DNA of 64,000 nt, from assembly GCA_921293015.1 (NCBI GenBank), contig OV121083.1, forward strand, positions 31,054,908 to 31,118,907. The letters are read 5' to 3'. A model generated the notes under the pieces. The model did not search any database and was not told where the DNA came from. It saw only the letters and a program-made list of their open reading frames with translations. Source of the stretch: Phorcus lineatus. Lineage: Eukaryota; Mollusca; Gastropoda; Trochida; Trochidae. Of this stretch, positions 3,675 through 64,000 are shown piece by piece; position 1 is the stretch's first letter, and the number at the start of each line of letters is the position of its first letter. A program made the translations under genes and the position numbers.

Positions 3675-5187
3675 CACTCAAAGCCATTAAAAACGCAATG
3701 CCTAATTCTAGAAATATTTCTGGTAAAACGTTTTCTTGCGCTTTTCTATCTTATGGCATACAGTTGCAACTTGAAATGGATCATTTTGTTTGAGTTCTGT
3801 GTTTGAACCCATTATCAGTTCTCGGTAATGAACTTTGTTCGTGCAAACGCAAACATTGTCTTTTTTTCACGATTTTAAGCAGTCCCATGTCACACGTTTT
3901 GCACGTGCATTCCCTGCACTCTGGCCCTTTAAATACCGATAAAGTTTTTTAACATTTGTCACTTCGGGAAAATGCCACGCCTTACGCAAGAAATGAGGAA
4001 CCGAGCTATTGGTATGCTGCATCAGGGCGCATCACAGGTAGCCGTTGCCAGAAACTTTCATGTGCACGCATCAACTATTGCTCGTCTCAGACAACGATTC
4101 CACGCCACTGGAAGAGTTTCTGATCGACCCCGACCTGGAGCGCCACCTGTAACAACTGCTGCTCAAGATCGCCACATCCGACTGCAACATCTGCGCAACA
4201 GGTTTCAGTCAGCTGCTGCTACTGCCAGGGGAACTGTGGGGACACGGCAACATCAGATCAGCCCTCAAACTGTCCGAAGGCGTCTTGCTGCTCATGGGTT
4301 ACGCTGCCGTCGACCTTATCAAGGTCAGATCCTATTGCAGCGCCATCGACTTGCCAGACAACAATGGGCCGCAAATCAGGGGTATCTGCACAATACACCG
4401 TGGCAAAATGTCATTTTCTCTGATGAATCTCGATTCAACCTCAGTTTTCCTGATGGACATCACTGTATCTACCGACGTCCACATGAACGTTTCGCTCGTA
4501 ACTGCGTGCAGGAAAGGGATCGTTTCGGGGGAGGTGGGGTCATGGTTTGGGGTGCTATCAACACTAACTTTCGGTCCCAGTTGGTAGTGGTCCAAGGCAA
4601 CCTTAATGCTCAACGTTATGTTGACACCATTCTTCGTCCGGCGTTGCTTCCATTGCTGGCTTAACATGGCGTCCGCCGACAGATGGTTTTCCAGCATGAC
4701 AACGTTAGACTCCACATCGCCAGGTTGACAAGGGATTTCTTAAACAATAATCATGTTGCTGTCATGGATTGGCCCGCTATGTCGCCCGACATGAATCCGA
4801 TTGAGCACATTTGGGATGAACTTGGACGGCGGGTTCGAACTCAAGCTGTGCCACCACGAACTGTTGCTGAGTTGACACAGGCACTCCAAAATCAGTTGCA
4901 AGCAATTCCACAGCGTGTACTGAGACATCTGTGTCAGTCCATGCCAAGACGACTCCAGGCATGTGTGAGAGCTCGGGGTGGACATACCCGATATTGACTT
5001 CAGCTGACCCTGCTTTGTGTAAAAGTTCTCTGACGTTTAGGATTTGTTCACTTGCAATGAATTATTCAATAAAATTAACAACAGATGTTTGTTATCTCGA
5101 TTGTGTAAATTTGTATTTACATTTGTTAAAAAATGTTTCAGTAAATAAACTTTGAATTTGAAGTTGCGTTTTTAATGGCTTTGAGTG
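3675..5187 (+). mobile_element. Tc1-like transposon, 1,513 bp
   Basis: It is bounded by perfect 24-bp inverted repeats starting CACTCAAAGCCATTAAAAAC (3,675-3,698 and 5,164-5,187) and by TA duplications at 3,673-3,674 and 5,188-5,189. The paralogous sequences near 1,300 (minus strand) and 16,625 (plus strand) show the uninterrupted target. It encodes one DD34E transposase. TIRs are intact and the coding region has a single nonsense codon, so this is one of the youngest insertions in the window. Confidence 0.92.
3972..4997 (+). pseudogene. Tc1-family DD34E transposase with one in-frame stop
   Basis: One continuous frame of 341 codons plus a stop is broken only by TAA at 4,662-4,664. The N-terminal helix-turn-helix region (residues about 1-60) shows ASQVAVARNFHVHASTIARL, followed by a GRVSDRPRPGAP linker. 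The catalytic triad is visible: first Asp in VIFSDESRF, second Asp in FQHDNVRLH, and Glu in SPDMNPIEHIWDELGRR, with 34 residues between second Asp and Glu. This is diagnostic of Tc1 DD34E enzymes, and the length is normal. It would catalyse cut-and-paste transposition at TA sites. The stop falls between the first and second catalytic Asp and would remove two of three catalytic residues unless read through. The start at 3,972 is the first ATG of the frame and fits family starts. Confidence 0.9.
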
Positions 5188-9345: not shown

Positions 9346-10784
9346 TGTCACAATGTGACAATGGTACTCAGTGATAACACACGAGGAAATTTACCATACC
9401 AAAATTTATTCAGAAAACAGGAAAAAAATCAACAAACAACACTTTACAAAGTATACAAGAAGACGCGAGATTTCAATTTGATGTCATAGGTTACGGGATC
9501 AACCTGAAATGAAAAAAAAAAATATTGTCTGCTAGCCGTGCCCAGGTGCCATGCAGAACGTCAGAGTGCACACGTGATATTAGTCGAATATTAGAGTCTT
9601 GAGCTGCAACACAAATATCTTAATTACACACGATTTCAAAATCTCAAAACACCTATGGCATCATACCGAATAAAAAAAAACCCTATCCTTTTACCCAGAA
9701 AACAATCACTTTACATTTACACAAAATACACAAAAGATTTAACACTGAATTCACTGAAACGCTGATACAAAACCGACTTCAATTACTATACAGTAATAAA
9801 TTGGTTACCTTTTACTTCATGACAAAAATAAAGTTATCAGATCAATGAATACCTCAGAAAATCTTCAACACATTAAATATCACACAACACCTCTCAAAAT
9901 GTCAACTTTCACATACAAAATCTTATAAACACACTTCATCTCAACAACATTAGAGAATACAAATTCTCAAATCACCACAGTCACCACACTTCACATAAAC
10001 AACCGGTTACACTGCCCGGTACCCATCCATGAAACGTTCATGGTCAACAATCCTTGCACCCGACTCGACAAGGTCGCCTTGACACGCAAGGTACAGTCGC
10101 ACTACCATACGACACCATCCGCAACACTAGTACGGCACTCGGATCCAAGGCCCAGACCTTCTGTACTGGCTACACCATGGTCCTCACGACTTCACTGGGT
10201 TGACCACACCATCCGCATAGGTCATAGGTCAAAAGGTCATAGGTAGAGCAAGTCTACACTTGGATGCACTACAACACACATTCATGCAACACTTTAAAAT
10301 ATATCCCACACAACACATTTGAATAAACCCAACACCAAAACGAACCTTTAATTAATTACAAATTAACCCCAAATTTGTAATTATTTTATATTCAAAATGA
10401 TACTTACTCCAATCTTGATAACCATGCTGTCCCTCAGGGATTTATCTACACCCGGTACTGATTTACCGTATGATGTACAATCATTTCCCCAACAGCTGCT
10501 TACCACCTGTACACAATTGTTATACATTAAATACAACATTCTTATACCAAAGTCATGAAATTCAACATATAAAACTTCCCATCTATTCATCTCACCTCAC
10601 TGCAGGATAAGCCCCGGTAACACCAATGCAAGTGGCTAGTAACACCCCAACTTGCCTTATATACCTGCTAGACCATGCCTTGCATGCTTTTCTCATGCTT
10701 GGCTCAACCGCACAGCGTCAGCTTACTCTAACCTTCTGGGTTCTAGGTGATTACCCTGGTTAATATTGAATCCAGTTCGTGACA
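9346..10784 (+). mobile_element. Solo LTR, 1,439 bp, ATGTA target duplication
   Basis: It begins TGTCAC and ends GTGACA, a perfect 6-bp inverted repeat with TG...CA ends, and has 5-bp ATGTA duplications at 9,341-9,345 and 10,785-10,789. The right arm of the inverted repeat shows the empty site near 14,270. No internal gag-pol sequence is present, so recombination between two LTRs has left a single one. The LTR is long. The superfamily (for example Gypsy) cannot be set without internal sequence. A non-autonomous DNA element is less likely given the TG...CA ends. Confidence 0.75.
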
Positions 10785-11356
10785 ATGTATATTATTTTAT
10801 TTTACATTATTTGAACTGAGAATAGAATTATGAGTACTTGTAACTCTTTTGCTACTTATGTGTACTTATAACACACAAATTAAGTGTCCAAAAGCAAACC
10901 AAGGGACCTACCGTTAATGTACTATCATTGAAATACACCGACTCAGCCTTGGAAAAAACTATTTTCTCTTCTCTACAGTTAATGTATATAATTTTATTTT
11001 ACATTATTTGCACTGAGATTAGAATTATGAGTACTTGTAACCCTTTTGTGTACTAATGTTTACTTATAACACACAAATTAAGTGTCCAAAAGCAAACAAA
11101 GGGACCTACCGTTAATCTACTATCATTGAAATACACCAACTCAGCTTTGGATAAAACTATTTTCTCTTCTCTACAGTGAATGTATATCACTTTATTTTAC
11201 ATAATTTGCACTGAGAGTAGAATTACGAGTACTTGTAACCCTTTTGTGTACTAATGTTTACTTATAACACACAAATTAAGTGTCCAAAAGCAAACCAAGG
11301 GACCTACCATTAATCTACTATCATTGAAATACACCAACTCAGCCTTGGAAAAAACT
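10785..11356 (+). repeat. Three-copy tandem repeat of a ~198-bp unit (left arm)
   Basis: Units start with ATTTTCTCTTCTCTACAGT at 9,320 (split by the solo LTR and resumed at 10,785), 10,961 and 11,159. Each ends in an AACTCAGCCTTGGAAAAAACT-like block. Copies differ by scattered substitutions. The mirror set is at 13,706-14,302. Confidence 0.9.
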
Positions 11357-12950: not shown

Positions 12951-14701
12951 GGTTGTGCCATCAGATTTGTTTGGTGAGCTAGGTGCCTTCATATGTGCAT
13001 TTACTGGAAATCCATATTGTAAATGAATGTAAATTTTAAAATAAAGTTGTTAAGCAGAAAATGTTGTCTTCCTTATGTACACATCACTTATAAAAGCCCT
13101 ATAAGGATTTCATTTTTGTTGTCTATGGGGGACCTGACATAAAAAATGTTGATAAAGTTTGCTGTCTGCAACTGAATGACTATCATGATACCATCACTAT
13201 CATGATACCATCAAAAGCCTAGAGTATCATACAATGCATTTCAATTAGCAGGTGGCTCTATGAAATACATCTCTGTTCCAATGCCTGTTGTTCTAGTTGC
13301 TAATGAGAGTCATAGTTCGACTCTTGTGGATGGGAAGCTAGAGCCAGTGCGCTCTTCCTAGAGAGTTGGTCGACATCAAGGCCCCGCAACGTGACAGCTT
13401 TGAGGATGATAATGATGATTGTTGTGGTGTGTGGTGTATGGTGATGTTATTGATGATGATGCTCTCTCTTAAAACTGTGATTTTGATTAATTGTTGATAT
13501 CCAAAAAGCAGCTGAATCAAACAGTCATATTGAGATTGAAAATGAATAATTTGCAAGAATGTACTCCTATACCACATGCCTGTGATGTGTGTAATGACGG
13601 AATTAGTACCTATGTGTTATCTTTCTTCTTTGTACCCTTTAAATCTATCCCTTTAAATCCCCAATGATTAAGAAATAAAACAACACATTCAAAATACAAA
13701 ATTGTAAGTTTTTTCCAAGGCTGAGTTGGTGTATTTCAATGATTGTAGATTAATGGTAGGTCCCTTGGTTTGCTTTTGGACACTTAATTTGTGTGTTATA
13801 AGTACACATAAGTACACAAAAGGGTTACAAGTACTCGTAATTCTACTCTCAGTGCAAATTATGTAAAATAAAGTGATATACATTCACTGTAGAGAAGAGA
13901 AAACAGTTTTTTCCAAGGCTGAGTTGGTGTATTTCAATGATAGTAGATTAACGGTAGGTCCCTTTGTTTGCTTTTGGACACTTAATTTGTGTGTTATAAG
14001 TAAACATTAGTACACAAAAGGGTTACAAGTACTCATAATTCTAATCTCAGTGCAAATAATGTAAAATAAAATTATATACATTAACTGTAGAGAAGAGAAA
14101 ATAGTTTTTTCCAAGGCTGAGTCGGTGTATTTCAATGATAGTACATTAACGGTAGGTCCCTTGGTTTGCTTTTGGACACTTAATTTGTGTGTTATAAGTA
14201 CACATAAGTAGCAAAAGGGTTACAAGTGCTCATAATTCTATTCTCAGTTCAAATAATGTAAAATAAAATAATATACATTAACTGTAGAGAAGAGAAAATA
14301 GAATTGTTAACCCTTGGGACCCCTAATGGGCGGTGGACTAAATTTAGTTCTAATCGGTCAATGACACATCTGTGAACGCGTTTTTCTGCAAAAGCAAAAC
14401 CTAACCTTACGTCATCTAAGAACATTAAGCGTTGCCAATCACCAAACGGAAACGTATAACTCGCCTGGCCCATGACATTTGACAATCAGACATACTGCTT
14501 GGAAGGATCAATGTGTTCAAACCTCTTAATTATGTACTTAGTCTCCGGTGCACTGTGTGTCGACTTTCAATGTGTCCTTATGCCGTCGTTGCTGTCGACG
14601 TTGACGACACAAAACCTTTCCAAAGATGTGGCGACCATCAGCAGTGTTATCACAAGTGATCGACTAATGTCGACATTGTACTAGTCAGCAAGTTTTATGA
14701 G
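12918..14701 (-). repeat. Right arm of the large inverted repeat
   Basis: It is the reverse complement of the left arm without the solo LTR. It includes the mirror of the 198-bp tandem array (13,706-14,302) and the outer block 14,303-14,701, whose mirror is 8,917-9,319. It ends immediately before a 36-bp poly-G tract. Confidence 0.85.
13706..14302 (-). repeat. Three-copy ~198-bp tandem repeat (right arm)
   Basis: It is an inverted counterpart of the left-arm array and is uninterrupted. The three units end in GTAGAGAAGAGAAAA-type blocks at about 13,904, 14,102 and 14,302. Confidence 0.9.
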
Positions 14702-30149: not shown

Positions 30150-30905
30150 TTTATCTCCTAATTAGGATATACCATCACCTAATTAGGAGATAGTAACTCC
30201 TAATTGGGAGATAGTAACGCCTAATTATGAGATAACTAACCTCTAATTAGGACCTAGTTAACACCTAAGTAGGAGATAACTAAGTCCTACTTAGGACATA
30301 GCTATTTCCTAATTAGGACTTAATTATCGCCTAATTAGGAGTTACTATCACCTAATTTGGAGATACTATCTCCTAATCAGTTGAAACTATCGCCTAATTA
30401 TGAGATAGTAACGTCTAATTAGGAGATAAGTAGCCCTAATTTACGGAAGCATCCTAGTGCCACAGTCAAATTTTTTTTATCTCCTAATTAGGATATACCA
30501 TCACCTAATTAGGACTTAATCATCGTCTAATTAGGACATAACTATCACCTCATTAGGAGAAACTATCAACTAATTAGTAGATACTAACTCCTAATTAGGA
30601 CATAACTATCACCTAATTAGGATAAACTATCAACTAATTACGAGATGAAGTCCTAATTACTATGTCCTAATTAGGAGATATTAAGTCACCATCACCTAAT
30701 TAGGACTTAGTTATCACCTAATTAGGAGATGATTATCACCTAATTAGGAGTTAGTATCTCCTAATTAGGACTTAATTATCACCTAATTACGAGAAAGTAT
30801 CAACTAATTAGGAAATAGCTATGTCCTAAGTAGGACTTAGTTATATCCTAACTAAGAGTTACTACCTGCTAATTAGGAGTTACTTTCTCCTCATTAGGTG
30901 ATAGT
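30150..30905. repeat. Array of CCTAATTAGG palindromes with 21-22-bp period
   Basis: About 30 or more palindromic units, consensus TCCTAATTAGGA, lie at steps of 20-22 bp; for example starts are near 30,157, 30,179, 30,199, 30,220, 30,242, 30,264, 30,286, 30,308 and 30,330. Spacers carry AGATAGTAACT-like sequence. A longer unit starting GGAAGCATCC at 30,119 and again at 30,444 shows a ~325-bp duplication on top of the short period. There is no coding capacity. TAATTA is the core of many homeodomain binding sites. Confidence 0.85.
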
Positions 30906-31239
30906 ATCAACGTATCTATGTAACGGCCTTGAAGACTTTTCAACTTCAATGCCACACATTGGCGACCTTTCTCTGCAAGTCTATATTGATACATTACACA
31001 CTAACTTCATTTTACCATGAACACCTATAAACTACCACCTTGTTTGTAATGAAACTTCTGATATGACAATAGCTTGACTGAAAAAAACCATAACCAAACT
31101 GTCATTCAATAGTACTTGTTTATTGTGATGTTTGAACAATTTTCAAAAACAAATCCACACTTGGATTCACTCTCCGACACACTTTGGTTGACACTATCCA
31201 TTGTTGCTTGTTTGTCGGCTCCATCAGGTTCTTCTCCCT

Positions 31240-32279
31240 GCAAGATCTTTGACACATGTCCGCTTGTAATTTTCAACTGCCAGGCTCCTGTGACCTGTTC
31301 GGTCCTTCACTAGTTGCTGTAGATGCTCTTTTAGCGAGTGATTGGTGTAGTAACCGTCAATTCCTGCGTTATACATTAACCGTCTAACCACAGTATGTTA
31401 GACGGTTAATGTCTTGTTACGTCCGATCCCTTGCTTCGAACACCATACTTGCCCCTTTGGGTTTGTTAGAGGTCGAAAATAGAAAATGTCTTGGTCTCTT
31501 TGCTCTGGAAGGTGACTGCAATAAAGTTGGAAAAGTTGCACAGGGCACAGTTTTGAGTCACCATTCTGGTACGCTCGAGCACTATGAGGGTCTATTTTGC
31601 GGTGTTTCAAGCCGCCCCTGTACGTCTTAGACACAGTTTCGGTATACTGTAAATAGCTCTGACCTTTCACCTCAAAATTTCGGAAACTAAACCGACGGTG
31701 TTCTTCTCCACCTCTCAGTCCAAAACTCATCACTACGATCCAGATCAATGTGTCCACCAGAAGCTGCAGTGTAGATGAGCCTAACATGCCTTTACTCCAA
31801 AGGATAGCTTCTTGATCTTTGCTGATGACATCAGCTTGCAGCCTCTGAATACCAACTCCTCGCTTACACTTCTCCTGCATAACGTTATCAACAGTCTGAT
31901 TCAGACGCGAAAAAATTGGATCAGTAAAAGCATCCAGCTCTCGACCTTGCTGTCTCAAATGGCGTTGTATCCCACACAAAATAGATAACACACTTTCCCC
32001 TGGATTATCATCACCATTTTCTTTTTTGAGTGTTATGACAAAGATGCACAAGACAGTTTAAGTTCATCGTCCGACATTTCGTGTATTTCCCGCCGACTGT
32101 CGTTGAGAATACTATAGCTTCACCAAGCTCGCCTTTTCCATTGCTAGCATCGGATATGAATTCTTGTGTCCACTTCGAAAGTACATTCAAGGACCATTTG
32201 TTCTTCCTCAGTGTGTTAGGGGGTATAAATGCTCTTCCATGATCTGCATCTGACACCTGGACGAACCTCCTGTCTGGTC
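31240..32279 (-). pseudogene. Tyrosine-recombinase (Crypton/DUF3504-type) relic exon
   Basis: Minus-strand reading starts after a splice-acceptor-like TTGTGTTACAG (ending at 32,280). The parts in order are: WSLNVLSKWTQEF (N-terminal region), then after a frameshift near 32,050 SVLSILCGIQRHLRQQG (core-binding domain), then MSFGLRGGEEHRRF with the first catalytic Arg. A TAA near 31,398 ends this frame. In shifted frames the rest of the domain follows: DGYYTNHSL near 31,345, TGHRSLAVENYKRT near 31,290 with the Tyr nucleophile position, and then a stop. The HxxR box is broken by an extra A. The family derives from Crypton-type transposons and is often host-domesticated. Several lesions mark it as dead. 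Confidence 0.75.
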
Positions 32280-43800: not shown

Positions 43801-44884
43801 GTCCCCCGCCGCAACGCGGAACGGGGGACTATGAATTCAGCGGCGTCTGTCCGTACGTACGTACGTCCGGATTCTTGTTAACGCGATAACTCATGAAGCC
43901 TAGCACCTAGAGTGTTCATATTTGGTGACAGCTTTCAATGGAGAAAGACTCAGACGCCAGTCGACTTTGGTGACCTTGACGTTATTTTCAAGGTCACCAC
44001 TTCACCACGTAAGTCCGGAATCTTGTTTACGCGATAACTCATGAAGATTAGCACCTAGAGGGTTTATATTTGGTGACAGCCTTCAATGGAGGAAGACTCA
44101 GACGCCAGTCGACTTTGGTGACCTTGACGTCATTTTCAAGGTCACAACGACAAACTCGTGAAGCTTAGCACCTAAAGTGTTCATATTTGGTGACAGCTTT
44201 CAATGGAGGAAGACTAAGATGGCTGTCGACTTTGGTGACCTTGACATCATTTTCAAGGTCACCACGACACTACGTCTGTCTGGATTCTTGTTAACGCGAT
44301 AACTTGTTAAGCTTAGCACCTAGACTGGTCATATTTGGTGATAGCTTTCAATGGAGGAAGACTCAGACGCCAGTCGACTGTGGTGACCTTGACGTTATTT
44401 TCAAGGTCACCACGACACTACGTCCGTCTTGATTCTTGGTAACGCGATAACTCATGAAGCTTAGCACCTAGAGTGTTCATATTTGGTAACAGCCTTTAAT
44501 GGAGTAAGACTCAGACGCCAGTTGACTTTGGTGACCTTGACGTCATTTTCAAGGTCACAACGACAAATTCGTGAAGCTTAGCACCTAGAGTGTTCATATT
44601 TGGTGACAGCTTTCAATGGAGGAAGATTAAAATGCCAGTCGACTTTGGTGACCTTGACGTCATTTTCAAGGTCACTACGACACTTTGACCAATTTCTAAT
44701 ACATTGTTAACGTGCACCTAGTGTTCATATTTGTTGACAGCTTTCAATGGCGGAAGACTCAGACGCCAGTCGACTTTGATGACCTTGACCTTATTTTCAT
44801 GGTCACCATGACACTTTGACCACTGTAATACATTGTTAACGCGATAATATTCATTATGCCAAATATCTCATAACGGCGGGGGAC
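43801..44884 (+). mobile_element. GTCCCCCGCCG-terminal element with seven internal minisatellite units
   Basis: It starts GTCCCCCGCCG (43,801) and ends CGGCGGGGGAC (44,874-44,884), a perfect 11-bp inverted repeat. Between them lie seven units of about 118-150 bp, recognisable by TAGCACCTAGAG followed by TGTTCATATTTGGTGACAGC (starts near 43,900, 44,049, 44,164, 44,310, 44,459, 44,577, 44,707). Most units carry TGACCTTGACGTCATTTTC and TCAAGGTCAC. The left end has a further inner palindrome around GCAACGC. The target duplication is unclear. From general knowledge, repeats with this end and a following TACGTACGTCCGG stretch are common in mollusc genomes. Confidence 0.75.
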
Positions 44885-54045: not shown

Positions 54046-57000
54046 GTACCAGCAATAACCTGATACGTCCACCGATAAATATTATTTTTCACAATCTTGT
54101 TACTTGGATCTCATTTTGAAACCTGGAAAACAATAGATTTTTTAAAGATTGATTAATTTCAGAGGACTTCTCAAAAATAAAGAAATGTTAGAAAATTAAC
54201 CAAACAATCTCTTTTGCGCCAACTGTGATTTCATGTTTTTTGGTAGCCTTATTTAATTTGTGTTGTACTCATTCAATTTTATATTCTGTAAATAATTCCA
54301 ATCCATATTCATTTCTATGAAAGGCTCTTATTTACACAATTTTAAAATATGACATTTTCATATATTTTTTATAGGCCTATGAATAATTTCAATTGGATAT
54401 CTAGAATATAACTTTAATAAATATGTCCAAACCCAAAGTGACCCCTGTCAAGTATTTATAAAGTGTATGTGTTGGTACAAATTATTACTATAAGAGTACC
54501 TACTTAAATATATCATTTGAATAAATAAAAAAATCTCAACCTCAATAACCTAAATGTGACTATAATAAATGTGATCAATGATTTAGACATTTCTGTTTTT
54601 GATCTCAAAATAACCAGAATAACATGAAGAACAAATAAGACAAGTTTCTACACGGCCAATTGAATGTATTATAATGTATGTAAATATTCGACTAGCTGTA
54701 AACCTTTTTCAAAGAATGCTAATGAAACTTAGATGCAAAAACTTACTAAATTTAAAAGGACTAACGTTCTTGACACAATGATTTTTATTTTTTTTGGCTA
54801 AGGTATATTGACTAGCCTGGAGACCAGTGGTTGTAATACTGACAGTGTCAACAAGCCGGGCGACCTCGATCTACAACTATCTAGACATTTATCATAAGAA
54901 ACTTTTGAATCTAAAAATCACACCTACACTTGTTAAATATAAGTGAAATGAAACATTTTGCTGGCAATAGTATTGCTTGGTAAGTTTACAATTATGTAGA
55001 TTGTAGAATATAATCTAGGTTGAAAGTTTATTTTCAGTGCAAAGCTATTTGATTACAAAGCGGTGGAGGTTGATCTTCTAGGCCTACAGTACCAATCTGT
55101 GATTTGATAAAACTATTTCATAAAAAATAAAAAAAACAAAATTATGAATGCTATTGGGGTTTTTGAAATACAAATTCGGATAATGTGAGTGTTGAACGAC
55201 ATTGGTATGGATGAGTTGCTTGGTCCAGCTCGCCTGAGATTGAAACTTGTCCCCCAACCCCAAAATATTTCAGCCAGTCACGTTGCAAGGGACGGGAGGC
55301 CTAAATGCTCTCGACTGGATCGGTCTAAAGACAGTCTATAAGTGGTAGAAGTTTGTTTATATGATATTCAATGTTCATATGATGCCTAGGTCATATTGAC
55401 TGGTGATTAGAGCGGTAAACACTGGATGAGTCAATGATCATTCAGACTATTTTCCTGGAGGGGACCGATATGACAGCGATTCGTAAGAACTGACGCTGCT
55501 AATGGCTGAGATATTGCCCAAGCGATGTTAAACAATAAATCAGATTTACAATTTTCAAATATTCAATCAATCAACTATTCCAAATCTTGGTGTGTATATA
55601 TATTGAATTTAAGCTGAATGGTACGCTACGTAAATGATTTAAAGGTTTATACACGTATGTAATTTACATTTTGGACAAGTGTTTATGTTATGATTTTGTA
55701 AAATATTCATATATTGTAATTGATATATATGTCCTGTTGGACTTAGGCCACTTTGACAAAAAATAAAATTATCTAACAAAAAACAAAACATTACGCTTGT
55801 CACACGACATGCTCACCAATTATAAACTTTTTCAGTCAAACTAATTTCACAGGATCTGATCATGCAGCCGTACAATACAACTTTACAGGTACATTACATT
55901 TCATTATGTAAATACAAAGACATGCAGCAAAAAAACTTGATTATACAACATTATGTGATCACTTTGAACCCTTCACTAAAATGACAACAAATCAATAATC
56001 AGCAACCATGCTCACAAGAGAAACATATATCTATCAATAGCAATATCTAATTATCACGGTAAAATGTAATAACTGCGATAAATTGTAAATAAAACGCGTA
56101 AGATGTAATACTGCGGTAAATATGTAATAAAAATAACTGCGGTAAATTGTAATAGAGAGTGCAGTAGGACAAAACTGACCGAGGTTCGGACAGTGTATCA
56201 ATTCAAATATTTCGAAACTCTGCATTATTTATTTATTTTGGATTTCTATCATGCAATGCAAAATTGTTTGTAAATTATCTGAAAATAACGGTTTTTAAAC
56301 GCGCGAGGTTCGGACAGTTGTGACCTAACTGACAGTAGCAGATAATCTTTTCGCATGTATCTTAGCTTAAGTATTTATCAAAATGATCTCAGACATTGCA
56401 AAACACTCAATGAGTAGTTCATGTAAAATTTCATCAAAGTTTTTCGTAAACATGAATACATTTGTCATCTCTACAGAGCATGATTTCCGATGTAAAATTC
56501 TCCCGACACTGCCGCATGCGTCGTTACAGAATTATGACGTCACAATCACTTTTGTAGGCATTTGAAGCCAAAACGCATAATCGCTGAACTGTATGTGTTA
56601 AAAATTAATATCTTTGTTAAATGTGTTAGTCGTATGTTATTGCATGTTTCCAGAACTTTTGTTGGTTGATATTAAAGCATTACAAGTCCGTATAAAGAAA
56701 ATATAAAAAGTATCCGAACCAAGGTCAAAACTGTCCGAAGCACGGCCATTTTGACATATTATCAATATCTCAACATTAACTTAAATATTCTCTTTAAATG
56801 TACCCATATTCATCACAATTTATGTGTTTGGTTGTTTCTCTTTGTTTATGAATACAGGTTACAATGTTTTGGAGCTTCCTATATTTCCTAACCTGATAGT
56901 GAACATTTACGTTGAAACAAATATTTGACCAATTTCTTACATGGATCTATAAGTTGTACATCATAGCAAAAAGTCGATTAGATATACTACCAACAATCAA

Positions 57001-60000
57001 ATGTCTTTTTAATGAAATGAATAAAACGACATACTATTAATTAATATTTTAAACAAATATTTTGCCGACATCGACAATGCACTTATTATTGCGTCAGTTT
57101 GCCCTATATGTTCAGATCACATGTGCGTTAACCAATACTACGTAGTGCGGTAAATTGTAATAACATTAATGAAGATGTTCATGTTGATACATGTTTTATA
57201 TATCGTGTGTTGATCTATGTTTGTATATATATCGTTAGGATGCTTGTGAGTAGCATTTACTAACCAAAAAAAATAATTTATTTCGATGATTAATAGACAA
57301 AGTATTTATTTTTGTATTACTATTACGACATCTTTTGACTAATGGAAAGTGGAAAAAATGTCCAGGTAAGATGAACTTCAGCTGTTTATTTGATCTCAAA
57401 GGATAGTGACAATCAAATTATAATATCTTCAATAAAACTCCAAATTACATTGATTTATTTACTCAAATGACGAGTACCAAAATAAATAACTGTCATGTTT
57501 TAACCAACAGGCCCTAGCCTAAGACCAGAATGAATGGCTGACAAAGATATATGTATCTATGCTTCTCTATGTATGGTTTTAAACTATGCAATTGCATTCG
57601 CTAAAGTATTTATCACAGGACATCCCGAAACTATTAACTCATGTCCTCATGATGTAAGATTGACGTTGTAAATATTGACAGTTCAGGCTTTTTCCCCCAA
57701 GTGCTAAAACGATGCAGTGTGGCATTCTATCTTCACCCCTCATTCTTGCACATATCGCACCAAGTTTATATGAATAACCGTTTTCTTACAACATTCTGGA
57801 ATATGATAGTGAATTCGTACGCGATTGCTATACACAGATGGAGAATGTAAAGGACATTTTCATATAAACGTACATTTTACAATTATGTTATGCTTTTGAT
57901 AAAAAGAACATTTTCTGCCCAGACGGATACTATATTATCATTAATATAACCTGACTAAAACTTTCACTCAAAGCTATATACTATGAAACTATATCAAAGC
58001 AATTTTCCCAATGAAATATGATTTTTTTAATGTGCCATTAATAGCGTTGAATATTAAACAATTAGAATAGAGCACGCATATTAGAGCATTTAGGGCTATT
58101 TTAGGCCATTTGAGGATATATTCAGTCACTTTAGTTGTATAATAATGCAAAAACATACATACCATATTTTGAAATTAACCTGCAACCAGTAAAGTAGAAG
58201 CCAAAGTGATGCCGAAAATCACGAGGCGAATCCCAATTTCCTTATAGAATTCCCAGTTAAGGTCAAATAGGCATGTATGGTATAGGTCAAAATTGGCTCA
58301 GCAAAACATTTGGCAGCCACAACGTTTTTCAGTTTTTCGTTGCATATTTAAATGTTTCGGTGTCGGTGAACATATTTATGTTGCTCTTACACGTGGTATG
58401 GACTTTGACACGCTTTTCTGTATAGTACGGAAGTTGTGTGTAATAGAACCATCTGTGATACTGTCCCTCGCCCAAGCCATGCAAAACTTTATTCAGAGAC
58501 AAACATTAGCTCTTTAGAAAAAAGAAACATCGTTCGAAATTATATGCATTTTACAAGTCGAATAACAGATAAGTACCTCATCTACAATGTGTCTAACTGT
58601 CCATAAGTTCATAGTATACTCTCGATGATATTGATACCCTAAACAACATACAACTTAAAATGTCTTGAACAAAAAAACATTTCCACTGGTAATTTAGATT
58701 AAAGGCCGTCTATTGGTTTTTAATTAAAATATCATTTTGTATGTTATTTACAATTTACAGCTTTATTGATATGTATTGATGGTTATAACTTTCTGTGAAC
58801 GTTACGTAATCAGCACGTCGACGTGTCAAGAAACAGCGTTTTTTCGGGGCTATTTCTTTTACAAAAAAGTCTTATGAAGTTACACAAATATAAAGAGGTT
58901 GTATTAATCGCTGGAGTAACGCACAATCATTCCACAACTTTCCACATTTGGCAAGGCTTTTCACTTCTGATTTTGATCTAGTTGATGTTTGTTGTCAAAC
59001 ACCTCTATTAGCGTCACTTCTTTTGCTGACTCCCTCTACCCCTCACACACGCCCAACAAGTTTATTGTCATGTTGAGATCATAGAGACATGCTTGATTGT
59101 CGGTTAGACTAGGTAACCGTTAATTACCATGAAGTAAAATTATGCAACATCTTCTCTCTTCGTTGACAGAGAGACCTGTGTAATTACTTAGTAAGACCGT
59201 AATGAAAAGGTAACGGTTATTTTTTGTTTGAGATGGTTTGATAAATATATTTTTATTTCGTACGAAATTTGGATTGGCGAACAAGTCATTTGGTCTATTT
59301 TAACGCCGCTCCAATACAAAATTTAAGAAGCTGGATACAGAACATAACAACGAAATAGAGAAAAAAAAAACTAATGAAGTATATTTGTGATATAAATAAC
59401 AAAGCATAGCAAAAAATAAAGTGTTGTTGGGTATATGAAGACATATGAAGCAATATCAGAAGGACAAGGTATGGAGAGTTAATAAAAGAAATGTAAGACA
59501 TCTCATAACATATTATGAAACCCGTTGTTGATTGATCTAAACATTTATCCATTTCACTGTTATCACACCATGGAAGTCCAAACTTTACTTATTAGACAGA
59601 GGTTAAAATGCATGGTGAAGTTTCTATTTACCATATTCACCATTTTGAATGAATATGTGCATATATCGTAGGATACTCTGACATTGTTTTAAAGAGTTTT
59701 GATTATTGTCTTGGTTTTGGTATGGTCAGTTGATTATAAATATCCATAAATAATTAATAAACTTCAATGTTTTCATACATTTGTTTCAGTTTTCTTTTAC
59801 AAACATAAATTTGATATTATTGATAGTTGGATAATTTTACATTACGCGGTGTTTCTAACCTTGACTCAGAAATTTAAATTATTTCCTTAAATTTGAAAAG
59901 AATTGATACAAAATAGGAATTATCAGAATACATAACACTCTTATACCGTTTGATGTATGAGTAAACCTATTAACAGGAATGTTTTGTTCTTAAAACTATA

Positions 60001-60277
60001 TTTCAAGCTATGTTTGAGCCGATTGAGCTTTCTATAAAATACTTTTGTGGAATTTGAGTTTTAGTTCAAGTTTGTAGTCCCTAGGTTAAATATTAATATT
60101 ATTAAAACGTGACCTCGAAATAAACTCTCTTAATGCGATAATAAATTGCCTAACATTTTCATCATTAATTGTAGACTCGATCATTGGCTAAATCGATATT
60201 TTAAATATGATGTTCACAGTTCACATTTCACGTCACAGTGAATTTATAATCCGTTAGTACAGGTCTAGGCATTGATT

Positions 60278-60281
<4 letters not shown>
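54046..60281. other. No gene recognised; scattered old repeats
   Basis: Long AT-rich stretch. A SINE-like block at 55,380-55,535 contains ATATTGCCCAAGCGATGTTA, a motif of a repeat type I associate with molluscs. At 56,030-57,170 a TGCGGTAAATTGTAATA motif recurs (near 56,110, 56,140 and 57,148) together with several GAGGTTCGGACAGT-like motifs (56,180, 56,308, inverted variants near 56,730). A short open frame at 58,293-58,517 (74 codons) is unrecognised. No credible exon. Confidence 0.4.

Positions 60282-60350
<69 letters not shown>
60282..60350 (+). repeat. (TA)n microsatellite
   Basis: An AT run with one G interruption near 60,337. It lies about 70 bp before the ribozyme palindrome. Confidence 0.9.
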
Positions 60351-60425
60351 TAAAATAGTAAAAAGAATGTTCAAACTCTATGGTAGTATATATTAAAAAG
60401 AAGAAAATGAAATTGAATTACATTT

Positions 60426-60470
60426 GGCAAACGTTTTCAGCAGGTACGAATGTACCTGCTTCATCAGGCC
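60426..60470 (-). ncRNA. Hammerhead ribozyme motif, minus strand
   Basis: It is the exact reverse complement of the plus-strand motif at 60,495-60,539. Stem I is GGC/GCC, the CUGAUGA core corresponds to 60,461-60,467, stem II to 60,439-60,460 and GAAA to 60,435-60,438. It shares all core residues with its partner. Confidence 0.75.
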
Positions 60471-60494
60471 GTTTAATGCATTACTGCATTAAAC

Positions 60495-60539
60495 GGCCTG
60501 ATGAAGCAGGTACATTCGTACCTGCTGAAAACGTTTGCC
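60495..60539 (+). ncRNA. Hammerhead ribozyme motif, plus strand (Penelope-associated, type I)
   Basis: The order is stem I GGC (60,495-60,497), core CUGAUGA (60,498-60,504), and stem II of 9 bp with an AUUC loop (60,505-60,526). GAAA follows (60,527-60,530), then the self-complementary AACGUU (60,530-60,535) as stem III, U at the cleavage position (60,536) and GCC closing stem I (60,537-60,539). All conserved core bases are present. A palindromic, nearly loopless stem III is the form reported for Penelope-like elements, which are thought to cleave as dimers. The scissile bond would follow 60,536. Confidence 0.8.
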
Positions 60540-60589
60540 AAATATATATATATTAACACAAAAAACTTCTTCATAGTTCAAGTAATAAA

Positions 60590-60838
60590 TAGATAAAAAA
60601 CAAAAGTCTGGAAATGATTTCAATCCCCGACCGGTTTCACACTATTCAGTGATCATCATGGGGTCTTTATGACGTTGCCATGTTATGACGTCACAGAACA
60701 AGAGGCGCATAACTGTACATGTGATGCGCATGTCATGTTTTCCCGTACATGGAATAAGTGGCCACTTTTGAAGTTATATTCTTTCCCTTCTAATAAGTAC
60801 GGGCAAGTGCCACAATTTGGTCTTCCAAACTTTCTTAT
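60590..60838 (-). mobile_element. Inverted, deleted Penelope 3' copy (left arm of fold-back)
   Basis: 60,590-60,714 is the reverse complement of 61,966-62,090 with few changes. 60,721-60,838 is the reverse complement of about 61,505-61,622, encoding on the minus strand KFGRPNCGTCPYLLEGKEYN. The 343 bp that lie between these two blocks in the right copy, encoding the GIY-YIG core and C-terminus, are missing here. Confidence 0.8.
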
Positions 60839-60840
60839 TG

Positions 60841-61870
60841 ATTTGGAAGCGATTTTTAGATGATTGTTTCATCCTTTGGAAACGGAGCGATACTGATTTA
60901 GAATGTCTGACAAAATGAATTACAAAATTTACACCCAAGTTTGTCATTCACCAAGGAGGTAAATGATACACAGCTTCCCTTTTTAGATGTAAAAGTATCC
61001 ATCTCAAATAATCTTGTTGAAACGGATGTATACTACAAACCAACTGATTCTAAGCGATATTTGGATTTCAATTCATGCCATCCTCGCCATACAAAAAACA
61101 GCGTTCCGTATTCGTTAGCTAGACGAATCCGCATGATTGTTTCAAATACTGATCGTGTAGATTATAGACTGAATGAATTAAAAGATCTATTATTAAAAAG
61201 GCACTATCCGAAACAAATAATTGATGACGCTATTTTGAAAGCAAAACGGCAAAATCGTAATGATCTCCTTAAAGTTAAAGAGCAAGTACAAGAAAAGGTA
61301 CTACCATTTGTATCAACATTTAATCCAAGAAACCCAGAGATACTCCCAAAACTTAAAGAAACGCTCCACCCCCTACAAAATTGTGATACCTTAAAAGATA
61401 AACTTTCACATGTACATCTTATAAAGAGTAAACGGCAAAGCCGAAATATTAAACAAATAATAAGCAAAGCTAAATTTGATCAGTCAAGCCAAATTGACAA
61501 ATCAATAAGCAAGTTTGGAAGACCAAATTGTGGCACTTGCCCGTACTTATTAGAAGGGAAAGAATATAACTTCAAAAGTGGCCACTTATTCCATGTACGG
61601 GAAAACATGAAATGCGCATCACAAAATTTAATATATGTTATCAAATGCGGTGGTTGTGGCGAAGATTACATAGGACAAACGGGGGACACACTTAGATCAA
61701 GAGTGAGGGTCCATAAGCAGCAAATCAGGGACCCGTCCTGCCGCTACATTCCACTGAGTTGACATATAGAAAGATGTGCCGGCGATAACAGCGATGAAAA
61801 GAGAAAGATAAAAGAACATTATTTTATTAAACTTTTCAAGCCACAATTAAATGCAATTAATGTCACCTAA
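60841..61870 (+). pseudogene. Penelope-like element, RT C-terminus plus GIY-YIG endonuclease
   Basis: It begins at the RT catalytic box RFLDDCFILW (60,850) and is 5'-truncated there. A frameshift lies near 60,920. A long frame 60,941-61,762 then gives QLPFLDVKV, DVYYKPTDSKRYLDFNSCHP (RT thumb region) and the linker. The CGTCP zinc motif (near 61,533) follows, then the GIY-YIG domain: LIYVIKCGGCGEDYIGQTG, RSRVRVHKQQI. A TGA at 61,760 interrupts the frame, which otherwise continues HIERCAGDN to HYFIKLFKPQLNAINVT and a TAA at about 61,870. This is the standard Penelope C-terminal order. It is dead through truncation, one frameshift and one stop. Confidence 0.88.
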
Positions 61871-61965
61871 CTATGTCCATATCTAAAAACTGCTGTTAGT
61901 ATTATTATATGTGATTGATGTAAAGTAATGACGTCACCAATGTGTCGGTACGCATCGATTGTTAT

Positions 61966-62090
61966 GAGTTATGAGCCCCTTGTTCTGTGACGTCATAGCA
62001 TGGCAACGTCATTAAGACCCCATGATGATCACTGAATAGTGTGAAACCGGTCGGGGATTGAAATCATTTCCAGACTTTTGTTTTTTATCT
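61966..62090 (+). repeat. Penelope terminal region (right arm of fold-back)
   Basis: It contains ATGATCACTGAATAGTGTGA and ACCGGTCGGGGATTGAAATC. It is the inverted partner of 60,590-60,714. Confidence 0.85.
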
Positions 62091-62099
62091 ATATATCTA

Positions 62100-62142
<43 letters not shown>

Positions 62143-62150
62143 ATATATAT
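62087..62150 (+). repeat. (CTAT)n microsatellite
   Basis: About ten CTAT units followed by a short TA run, directly after the Penelope terminal region. Confidence 0.9.
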
Positions 62151-63525
62151 ATTTGTCAATTTGCTACATTCACTTGAAAAAAGTAGATCATTTGGAAAGG
62201 TACCCAAATTCACTAGCATTGTTCAGGAAGTCGATCAAGTCACAGATAATCTTTCAAACCTCACGTTCGATAAAGGTAGCCATTTACCTTTGAAATCAAA
62301 TAAACTTATTACAAACAAATGATAATGATTGCAAACAATTTTCCTTAACATTTTCCATGATGAAAATTCATCTTCTAAATCTCTTTTTATTCTGAATGAT
62401 GCAATTTCCAAACTCTATATCATTTATTCAGTTCGTGTGTTTAATTCAATCCTTAAATAGTAAAATGATTTATACAATTTCTGCAATAAAATAATAATAA
62501 ACAGGATTTGATTTATCATTTTAAAATCAAAGTCTACATTTGTTAAAAAATTGCAATGAAAAACGTTTTTAATTCTTTTTCAAAGGTCAAATTAAATTTC
62601 ATGTCTTACAAAATAAATGTTTCAAACAAAATAAATGTTTTCAAAATGTTAAATGTAGAAATAACTATAGGTTAACTTAATCAAAAGCTTCTAAAGATGT
62701 TCATAATATGGCGACTTTGACAAACAGAATAAAGGGACATAACTCTTGGTTAGTTAGGTAAGGTGCTAATTAGTCTGAAAGGCTGTAGAAAGGCCCCCTT
62801 GGCGTGCGTTCTTTCCATAGAGGCGCTTTGTATGATTGTGTAGAATCTAGAAATTGATACAACCAAGTTTTGTGGATGTTAGATGATTTGAAACTGAAAT
62901 CTTAGATACCGATCTTTGGAAGCTGCTGGTTACAAATTGTAGGTGTATTGACCTTTGGCTGGAACATCACTATACATGACAGTTGATGTTCTTTTTACAA
63001 TGTTTTGTGTTTTAAATGTGATTTTGACATCGTTTGGGACTTTCCAGTGTGCTTTGAAAAAGTTATGAGTTTTGATGACCGCAAAAAAACGTAATTAAGT
63101 AAATTGGTTAACTTTACCAAGTTTTTAGTTAACTTCAAACTTAACTTTTCCTCTCGTTTCTCTCTTATTTTGAATTTCTTATACTTGGCGGGATTTCATG
63201 TTTCCCAATTAAAACATGACCTCGAAATATGAAAGTAGAGGTTTTATATTAATCATAGCAACGGATCGTAAAAGATGTTCATACAAAGCACATTGGAATT
63301 AAAATATTTTCGTCTTAAACCTTATACCACTTCACTAATATATTTGCTTTGCTAGATCTAGGTCTACTTAGAATGCAACAAATATGAAATCATCCCAGTC
63401 TTATGTAATACATTCTAGTGAGACAGTTATTGGTCCTTAGCATTTTAAAAATTTTGGACCAAATTTAAACTTTGATGGAACATGACATTGTTTCAGAATA
63501 AATTTTATCGGAGTTTTGAAGTCCA
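62151..63525. other. No gene recognised; possible upstream region of the 63.5-kb exon
   Basis: AT-rich. AAAGGGACATAACTC near 62,731 is a motif of common mollusc repeats. A TTGTTTCAG acceptor-like site at 63,488-63,496 could end a 5' UTR intron just before the exon at 63,526; this is weak. Confidence 0.35.
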
Positions 63526-63601
63526 ATGAAGATGAATACATGGTTAATACTACTGGTTGCTGTCATTAGGACTGAAGGATTCCTATTCCAGGAAAAGTCA
63601 G
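63526..63601 (+). CDS. Signal-peptide first coding exon of a secreted or membrane protein (partial gene)
   Basis: ATG at 63,526 (a second ATG at 63,532) opens 25 codons: a Lys, a hydrophobic core WLILLVAVI, then a polar segment RTEGFLFQEKS. The exon ends in G with a strong donor GTAAGAG (GT at 63,602), giving a phase-1 intron. A short first exon that encodes only a signal peptide and ends in phase 1 is common for modular extracellular proteins. The remaining exons would lie beyond 64,000. No family can be named. The following 400 bp look intronic. Confidence 0.5.
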
Positions 63602-63667
63602 GTAAGAGCATTCATTTTTTTCTTTAATTAAGAATTAGAGTAGCCTCATGTGTTTTGCAATGAAGTA

Positions 63668-63753
63668 CAGTTTTGCCCTGAACTATATGATAGTGAAAGC
63701 ACGAGCCCGAAGTCCGAGCGGTTTGACGGTAATAATAGTTCAGGGCAAAATTG
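63668..63753. repeat. 86-bp hairpin element in the presumed first intron
   Basis: Ends CAGTTTTGCCCTGAACTAT (63,668) and, inverted, CAATTTTGCCCTGAACTAT (63,753) differ at one position. The interior has GCACGAGCCCGAAGTCCGAG. It is a MITE-like fold-back with no clear target duplication. Confidence 0.7.
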
Positions 63754-64000
63754 TTACATATAAGAATTTTAAAAACATAATTGTTGTGTATAACTGAATA
63801 TTAAGGGCAAACGAGAATGGCACTTCAAAACAATTACACATCGTGAACAAACAATTGTTGCGTGGTATTTGGTATTTTCCGTGCCCACTAGTTTCTATGA
63901 GAAATAATTGGCAGTTTTCTTAACGTTTTCCTGTGGTTAACATTATTCAGCCTTATCTTTGAAAGCTTGATTTGTATTCTTTATATAGGTAGAATTGATG

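Follow-up and report, generated by a model that had tools for sequence, protein, structure and literature searches.

A hammerhead-bearing palindrome in Phorcus lineatus as a probable miniature head-to-head insertion of a Penelope-like element

A perfect palindrome with a hammerhead motif on each strand was analysed in a 64,000-nucleotide stretch of Phorcus lineatus DNA (hereafter, the window). It is probably a miniature insertion, in head-to-head arrangement, of a Penelope-like family termed PLE-A, formed from two truncated cDNAs that were primed at both DNA ends and then joined. Judged by its sequence, the palindrome is the 3' end (pLTR) of this family. Inverted pLTRs with junction palindromes are already known; the new part is the pairing of one short and one long 3' end. 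There is no settled account of how Penelope elements finish integrating, and mirrored mini-insertions are natural records of integration in which the two cDNA ends lie no more than a few hundred bases apart.

The arms of the palindrome (60422–60480 and 60485–60543) are complementary at 59 of 59 positions, with the first mismatch at step 60, and TTAC at 60481–60484 forms the loop between them. An exact 59-bp inverted repeat with 4 nt between its halves, as described in an earlier note on this DNA, is therefore present at 60422–60543. It is the longest perfect near-palindrome among those listed for the window, the runner-up being 27 bp long. The interval 60422–60543 is correct for the perfect part only; by comparison with a genomic copy, the insertion extends over approximately 60346–60546. 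The palindrome itself contains no open reading frame. The insertion site includes the following features.

60281–60350, unstranded: (AT)n microsatellite, a tandem repeat forming the left flank of the insertion target; (TA)n flanks occur at most other copies
60346–60483, minus strand: left arm, PLE-A 3' end, reference positions 585–722, long end (with tail); 97.8% identity to the reference copy L027
60422–60480, minus strand: left half of the exact 59-bp palindrome
60481–60484, unstranded: central 4 nt (TTAC), the head-to-head junction
60481–60546, plus strand: right arm, PLE-A 3' end, reference positions 584–649, followed by an AT repeat; 98.5% identity to L027
60485–60543, plus strand: right half of the exact 59-bp palindrome
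60542–60553, unstranded: (AT)n, right flank of the insertion

The palindrome was used as a query against the P. lineatus assembly (957.8 Mb, 74 contigs) and produced at least 344 first-look candidates and at least 88 match rows; 40 of the 344 candidates were scored, and the counts are lower bounds. The studied set comprises 36 fetched loci (L007–L042), six more (L043–L048) and the window, 43 in all. Five copies (L024, L026, L029, L031 and L035) contain an open frame whose end lies some 110 nt upstream of the hammerhead. The frames of L035 and L036 match the GIY-YIG domain (E 4.3e-9 and 5e-6, above the curated score), and one L035 frame matches the reverse transcriptase domain RVT_1 (E 1.2e-4, below the curated score). 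These matches together identify the element as Penelope-like. Like Penelope pLTRs, the PLE-A copies have inverted terminal arms with an optional tail, and most are flanked by (TA)n or AT-rich sequence. An exception is L014, where the left flank is not TA; in L041 the left flank is an AAAT repeat. Exact hammerhead patterns were also searched in viral_contigs, where one pattern had no match and another matched L002 only, by eye without a matching stem II.

Some copies have other arrangements. At positions 2939–3340 of L017, four PLE-A arms lie in a row, two per strand, and the intact motifs carry a 3-nt insertion in the stem II loop. Among the fetched loci it is the only one with neighbouring arms on the same strand, and this array is possibly a step towards tandem hammerhead units. 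In L023 (3881–4482) and L021 (2911–3111), PLE-A ends lie tail to tail, apart from the head-to-head pairs.

Two putative hammerhead motifs were located in the palindrome.

60485–60546, plus strand: hammerhead motif, predicted cleavage at 60536/60537, with a C-A mismatch in outer stem I
60419–60480, minus strand: hammerhead motif, predicted cleavage at 60429/60428, with outer stem I as in the family

All parts of a minimal type I hammerhead are present, namely CUGAUGA, stem II, GAAA, stem III, a UH at the cleavage site and stem I. On the plus strand the core consists of CTGATGA (60498–60504), GAAA (60527–60530), AACGTT (60530–60535) and U17 (60536), with a 9-bp stem II (60505–60513/60518–60526); the mirrored core on the minus strand is at 60467–60461, and inner stem I has 3 bp in both motifs. 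Stem III is the self-complementary AACGUU and includes an A10.1-U11.1 pair, the usual hammerhead pair at this place being G-C, and position 17 is U. The full core that the earlier note assigned to each strand was thus found on both by the descriptor, at the level of sequence. Mirrored arms make the second motif a necessary consequence of the first, so that it adds no independent evidence. The descriptor scan found these two motifs alone in the window; in 60 second-order Markov versions of the window it gave a mean of 0.13 matches, and 0 with a stem II of at least 8 bp.

The covariance-model check suggested earlier gave no hit: Rfam 15 has no hammerhead match at the gathering threshold across the window, none up to E = 10 in 56000–64000, and none for either arm alone or for the unmirrored copy L027. 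What supports calling the motifs hammerheads is therefore the descriptor together with the fold and the Penelope context, and not Rfam. The L027 motif has a predicted fold in which stem I comprises 3 inner and 6 outer base pairs (z -3.97). The minus-strand motif of the window retains this outer helix; in the plus-strand motif it is interrupted by the C-A mismatch.

The palindrome had been suggested to switch between a cleaving form and a silent long hairpin. Both hammerhead cores are intact in sequence, as a bistable switch would need, but the long hairpin is predicted at -111.3 kcal/mol, far below the values for the two halves when folded separately (-38.5 kcal/mol) and for the right arm in its ribozyme-like fold (-18.2 kcal/mol). 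In minimum-energy folds of growing transcripts of both strands, which reflect equilibrium rather than kinetics, the hairpin zips from the centre outward together with the transcript and is complete once the cleavage site is made. Given also the damaged outer stem I on the plus strand, we see practically no prospect for the switch. In these folding models, the hammerheads of the palindrome would be passengers locked in a hairpin. Opposite-strand hammerhead pairs can arise as by-products without any switching role.

A second Penelope-like family, PLE-B, adjoins the palindrome in the window.

60585–60845, minus strand: inverted 3' piece of PLE-B, without the equivalent of 61624–61966; hammerhead-like motif with its core at 60659
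60846–62096, plus strand: 5'-truncated PLE-B body (open frame 60911–61762) with the 3' end; hammerhead-like motif with its core at 62022

PLE-B (60585–62096) is itself arranged head to head, the inverted 3' piece facing the 5'-truncated body, and 7 differences in 256 positions separate its inverted arms. The hammerhead-like motifs at both ends have C3 replaced by A, a stem III of ACCGGU and a stem I of CCCC/GGGG; in Rfam the motif shows only a sub-threshold match to Hammerhead_HH9 (15.5 bits versus 52). In the PLE-B frame, the GIY-YIG match of an 87-aa piece is weak (E 0.0051) and does not reach the curated score. The Penelope link drawn in the earlier note stands in so far as the palindrome appears to be the end of a Penelope-like family, but derivation from the neighbouring fragment is rejected: the PLE-B and PLE-A proteins share 40% identity, the palindrome and the PLE-B 3' end have no DNA similarity beyond an AT run, and PLE-B has its own degraded motif. 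PLE-B is an insertion separate from the palindrome and belongs to another family. Relatives of its protein were absent from viral_contigs, and in genome_contigs one 31% match was found on a 3.4-kb contig (L001) of a Campylobacteraceae MAG, where the Penelope-like protein is probably eukaryotic contamination. The divergence of the PLE-B arms also bears on the age of the palindrome. Its perfect identity had been taken to indicate recent formation or gene conversion; this is weak evidence, because at a divergence of 7 in 256 a run of 59 straight matches has p = 0.19, and the perfect palindrome need not be the younger of the two.

Past the hammerhead, PLE-A copies continue for about 40 nt to a short end (site 1, reference position 681) or for a further 41 nt, via the tail, to a long end (site 2, position 722). 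The tail corresponds to the optional one of published Penelope elements (PMC3846280; PMC11167929). Each end closes with an AT-rich TTTTAATATA stretch next to (TA)n, and what follows is mostly (TA)n. Head-to-head pairs were found at 25 of the 43 loci. In every pair with both arms ending at a standard site (18 of 18), one arm is short and the other long; short with short and long with long both count 0. These pairs are the following, with the outer ends used for classification in the four-arm locus L017.

18 short-plus-long loci: L007–L012, L014–L018, L026, L032, L035, L041, L042, L043, L045

Two more pairs deviate, L019 with arms reaching 701 and 722 and L044 with arms reaching 722 and 696; in both, the arm facing the long one runs past site 1 and stops before site 2, and we tentatively read these deviations as later losses. 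The other five pairs (the window, L013, L020, L021 and L033) are not assignable to an end class, in the window because the right arm stops at 649. This end might derive from a short end that lost sequence between its two AAT triplets. At the remaining 18 loci, with no BLAST-detected pair, seven copies end short and ten long, and L023 has its two arms tail to tail. Assuming independence and equal end frequencies, the chance of 18 out of 18 is p = 3.8e-6; with both deviants taken as long plus long, 18 out of 20 has p = 2.0e-4, again assuming independence.

Genome-wide patterns, which demand an exact match and a limited arm length, gave a similar picture. The pattern for a long end facing a short one had five matches, one of which is L044, and the pattern for two long ends had none. 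A long end with any partner was matched at ten places, where the partner is short in eight, unassignable in the window and at 696 in L044. A short end with any partner was matched at five places, all already known, with no case of two short ends. L043 and L045 were first found via a pattern demanding a short right end, and were also found via the pattern without that demand.

The short/long rule might be a product of survivorship, if equal-ended palindromes are unstable or collapsed in the assembly. Equal ends in (TA)n would presumably yield longer perfect palindromes, in line with this idea, but L035 (1,770 bp) and L026 (708 bp), both with large spacers, are short plus long as well; we consider survivorship unlikely, though with some real chance. 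An artefact of assembly or of chimeric reads has very little to recommend it. The evidence is assembled sequence, but a foldback gives equal arms and those of the window and of 18 other loci are unequal; moreover, the centres differ and the outer flanks are not mirrored.

The 5' ends of the arms show a pattern of their own. In 15 pairs, 21 of the 30 arms start at reference positions 578–590, adjoining TCAGTT, although this clustering is partly ascertainment because the query covered the 578–590 stretch. The TCAGTT stretch resembles an initiator, and transcription may start there. Each of nine closely spaced core pairs has a centre of its own, nine in all; these pairs are therefore separate insertions, not one palindrome that was copied. 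Many palindromic copies exist in the genome, as would be expected of a self-propagating palindromic element, MITE-like or a foldback retrozyme, with ribozymes on both strands. Such an element should have a shared centre and shared arm lengths; besides the nine centres, the arm lengths vary, the tail is now on the left and now on the right, and single-arm copies joined to a Penelope-type frame exist. We find this explanation very improbable.

Another way to make a palindrome is a snap-back, in which one cDNA folds and self-primes its second strand. Inverted-junction palindromes in Adineta vaga were read as self-priming on an antisense template (PMC3846280), and here the 4-nt centre is flanked on both sides by TGCA, which could fold into a small hairpin. 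However, the base that follows GTTAC, read in this orientation, does not provide the second TGCA at other loci, and the 5' ends of the two arms can differ greatly, as in L035 and L026. Self-priming predicts equal 3' ends and is contradicted by the unequal ends of all 18 standard-ended pairs, unless second-strand synthesis as a rule halts precisely at site 1. We rate the snap-back as improbable. The short/long pairing favours two cDNAs from two sites, one per strand.

We propose that the two-cDNA insertion would proceed as follows. The endonuclease would cut both strands of (TA)n, and each DNA end would prime a cDNA, one from site 1 and the other from site 2. Both cDNAs would end early, many of them near the initiator-like sequence just upstream of the hammerhead, and we guess that this stop is possibly a run-off at the 5' end of the RNA. 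The 5'-truncated cDNA ends would then be joined head to head, with the 3' ends outward. The arms would be near-perfect mirrors because both copy the same short piece, and would have unequal ends because each strand uses one start site. Against the two-site model are the arms of L019 and L044 that end at neither site, and the right arm of the window, which cannot be classed. The in vitro start sites of PMC11167929, described below, also speak against it, both in their use on the two strands and in their lack of homology to the target, as do the left flanks of L014 and L041 and the ascertainment behind the 5'-end clustering. We speculate further, with slightly more doubt than conviction, that the start sites are obligatorily one per DNA strand, as with a functionally asymmetric integrase dimer in which site 1 is used by one subunit and site 2 by the other, that every two-sided insertion is short on one side and tailed on the other, and that the mini-palindromes are the run-off form.

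Hammerheads in Penelope elements were reportedly described in a 2014 paper. They are known from PMC11167929 and PMC7229834. With head-to-head palindromes known as well, the novelty lies in the pairing rule; a literature search found no paper joining Penelope-like elements, the hammerhead ribozyme and the head-to-head layout. One of the closest systems is Poseidon of Anolis carolinensis (PAc), which like PLE-A has a hammerhead at the pLTR-ORF junction, an AT-rich target and two adjacent start sites that define a tail (PMC11167929). Work with this element in purified form showed cutting and extension of both strands, and internal starts of reverse transcription at the two adjacent sites with the tail between them; the PAc hammerhead cleaved only with its protein present (PMC11167929). 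Unlike those of PLE-A, the PAc start sites lie in an AC-rich stem loop that is not homologous to the target (PMC11167929). As the start site was no different between the two strands in vitro (PMC11167929), a pairing of start sites within each inserted molecule would be new.

Endonuclease-bearing Penelope elements, Adineta vaga Pen2a and others (PMC3846280), likewise have head-to-head inverted pLTRs, junction palindromes and AT-rich simple-repeat targets, and an optional 31-bp tail on one inverted pLTR is comparable to that of PLE-A. In contrast to the copies shown there, the insertion described here contains little beyond the hammerhead-bearing end, its arms mirror each other over 59 bp, and many copies were counted to establish the short/long pairing. 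PMC3846280 does not contain the word hammerhead. With metazoan retrozymes (PMC7229834), PLE-A shares a type I hammerhead whose stem III is weak and palindromic; an amphibian motif of this kind is said there to work better as dimers. Unlike these retrozymes, which are tandem repeats of 150–450 bp, PLE-A has a motif that adjoins a Penelope-type frame, and direct tandem units are absent from the palindrome site in the window.

Several other features were observed elsewhere in the window. Two arrays of about three 198-bp repeats each (10784–11356 and 13707–14298) flank approximately 2.3 kb, and their consensus units look like mutual reverse complements. Nested tandem repeats with units of 117 and 148 bp occupy 43859–44815, and short palindromic units are arrayed around CTCCTAATTAGGAGATA at 30152–30909. 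A Tc1-type transposase fragment (HTH_Tnp_Tc3_2) was found at 3933–4664, and a DUF3504/QRICH1 reading frame at 31398–32057.
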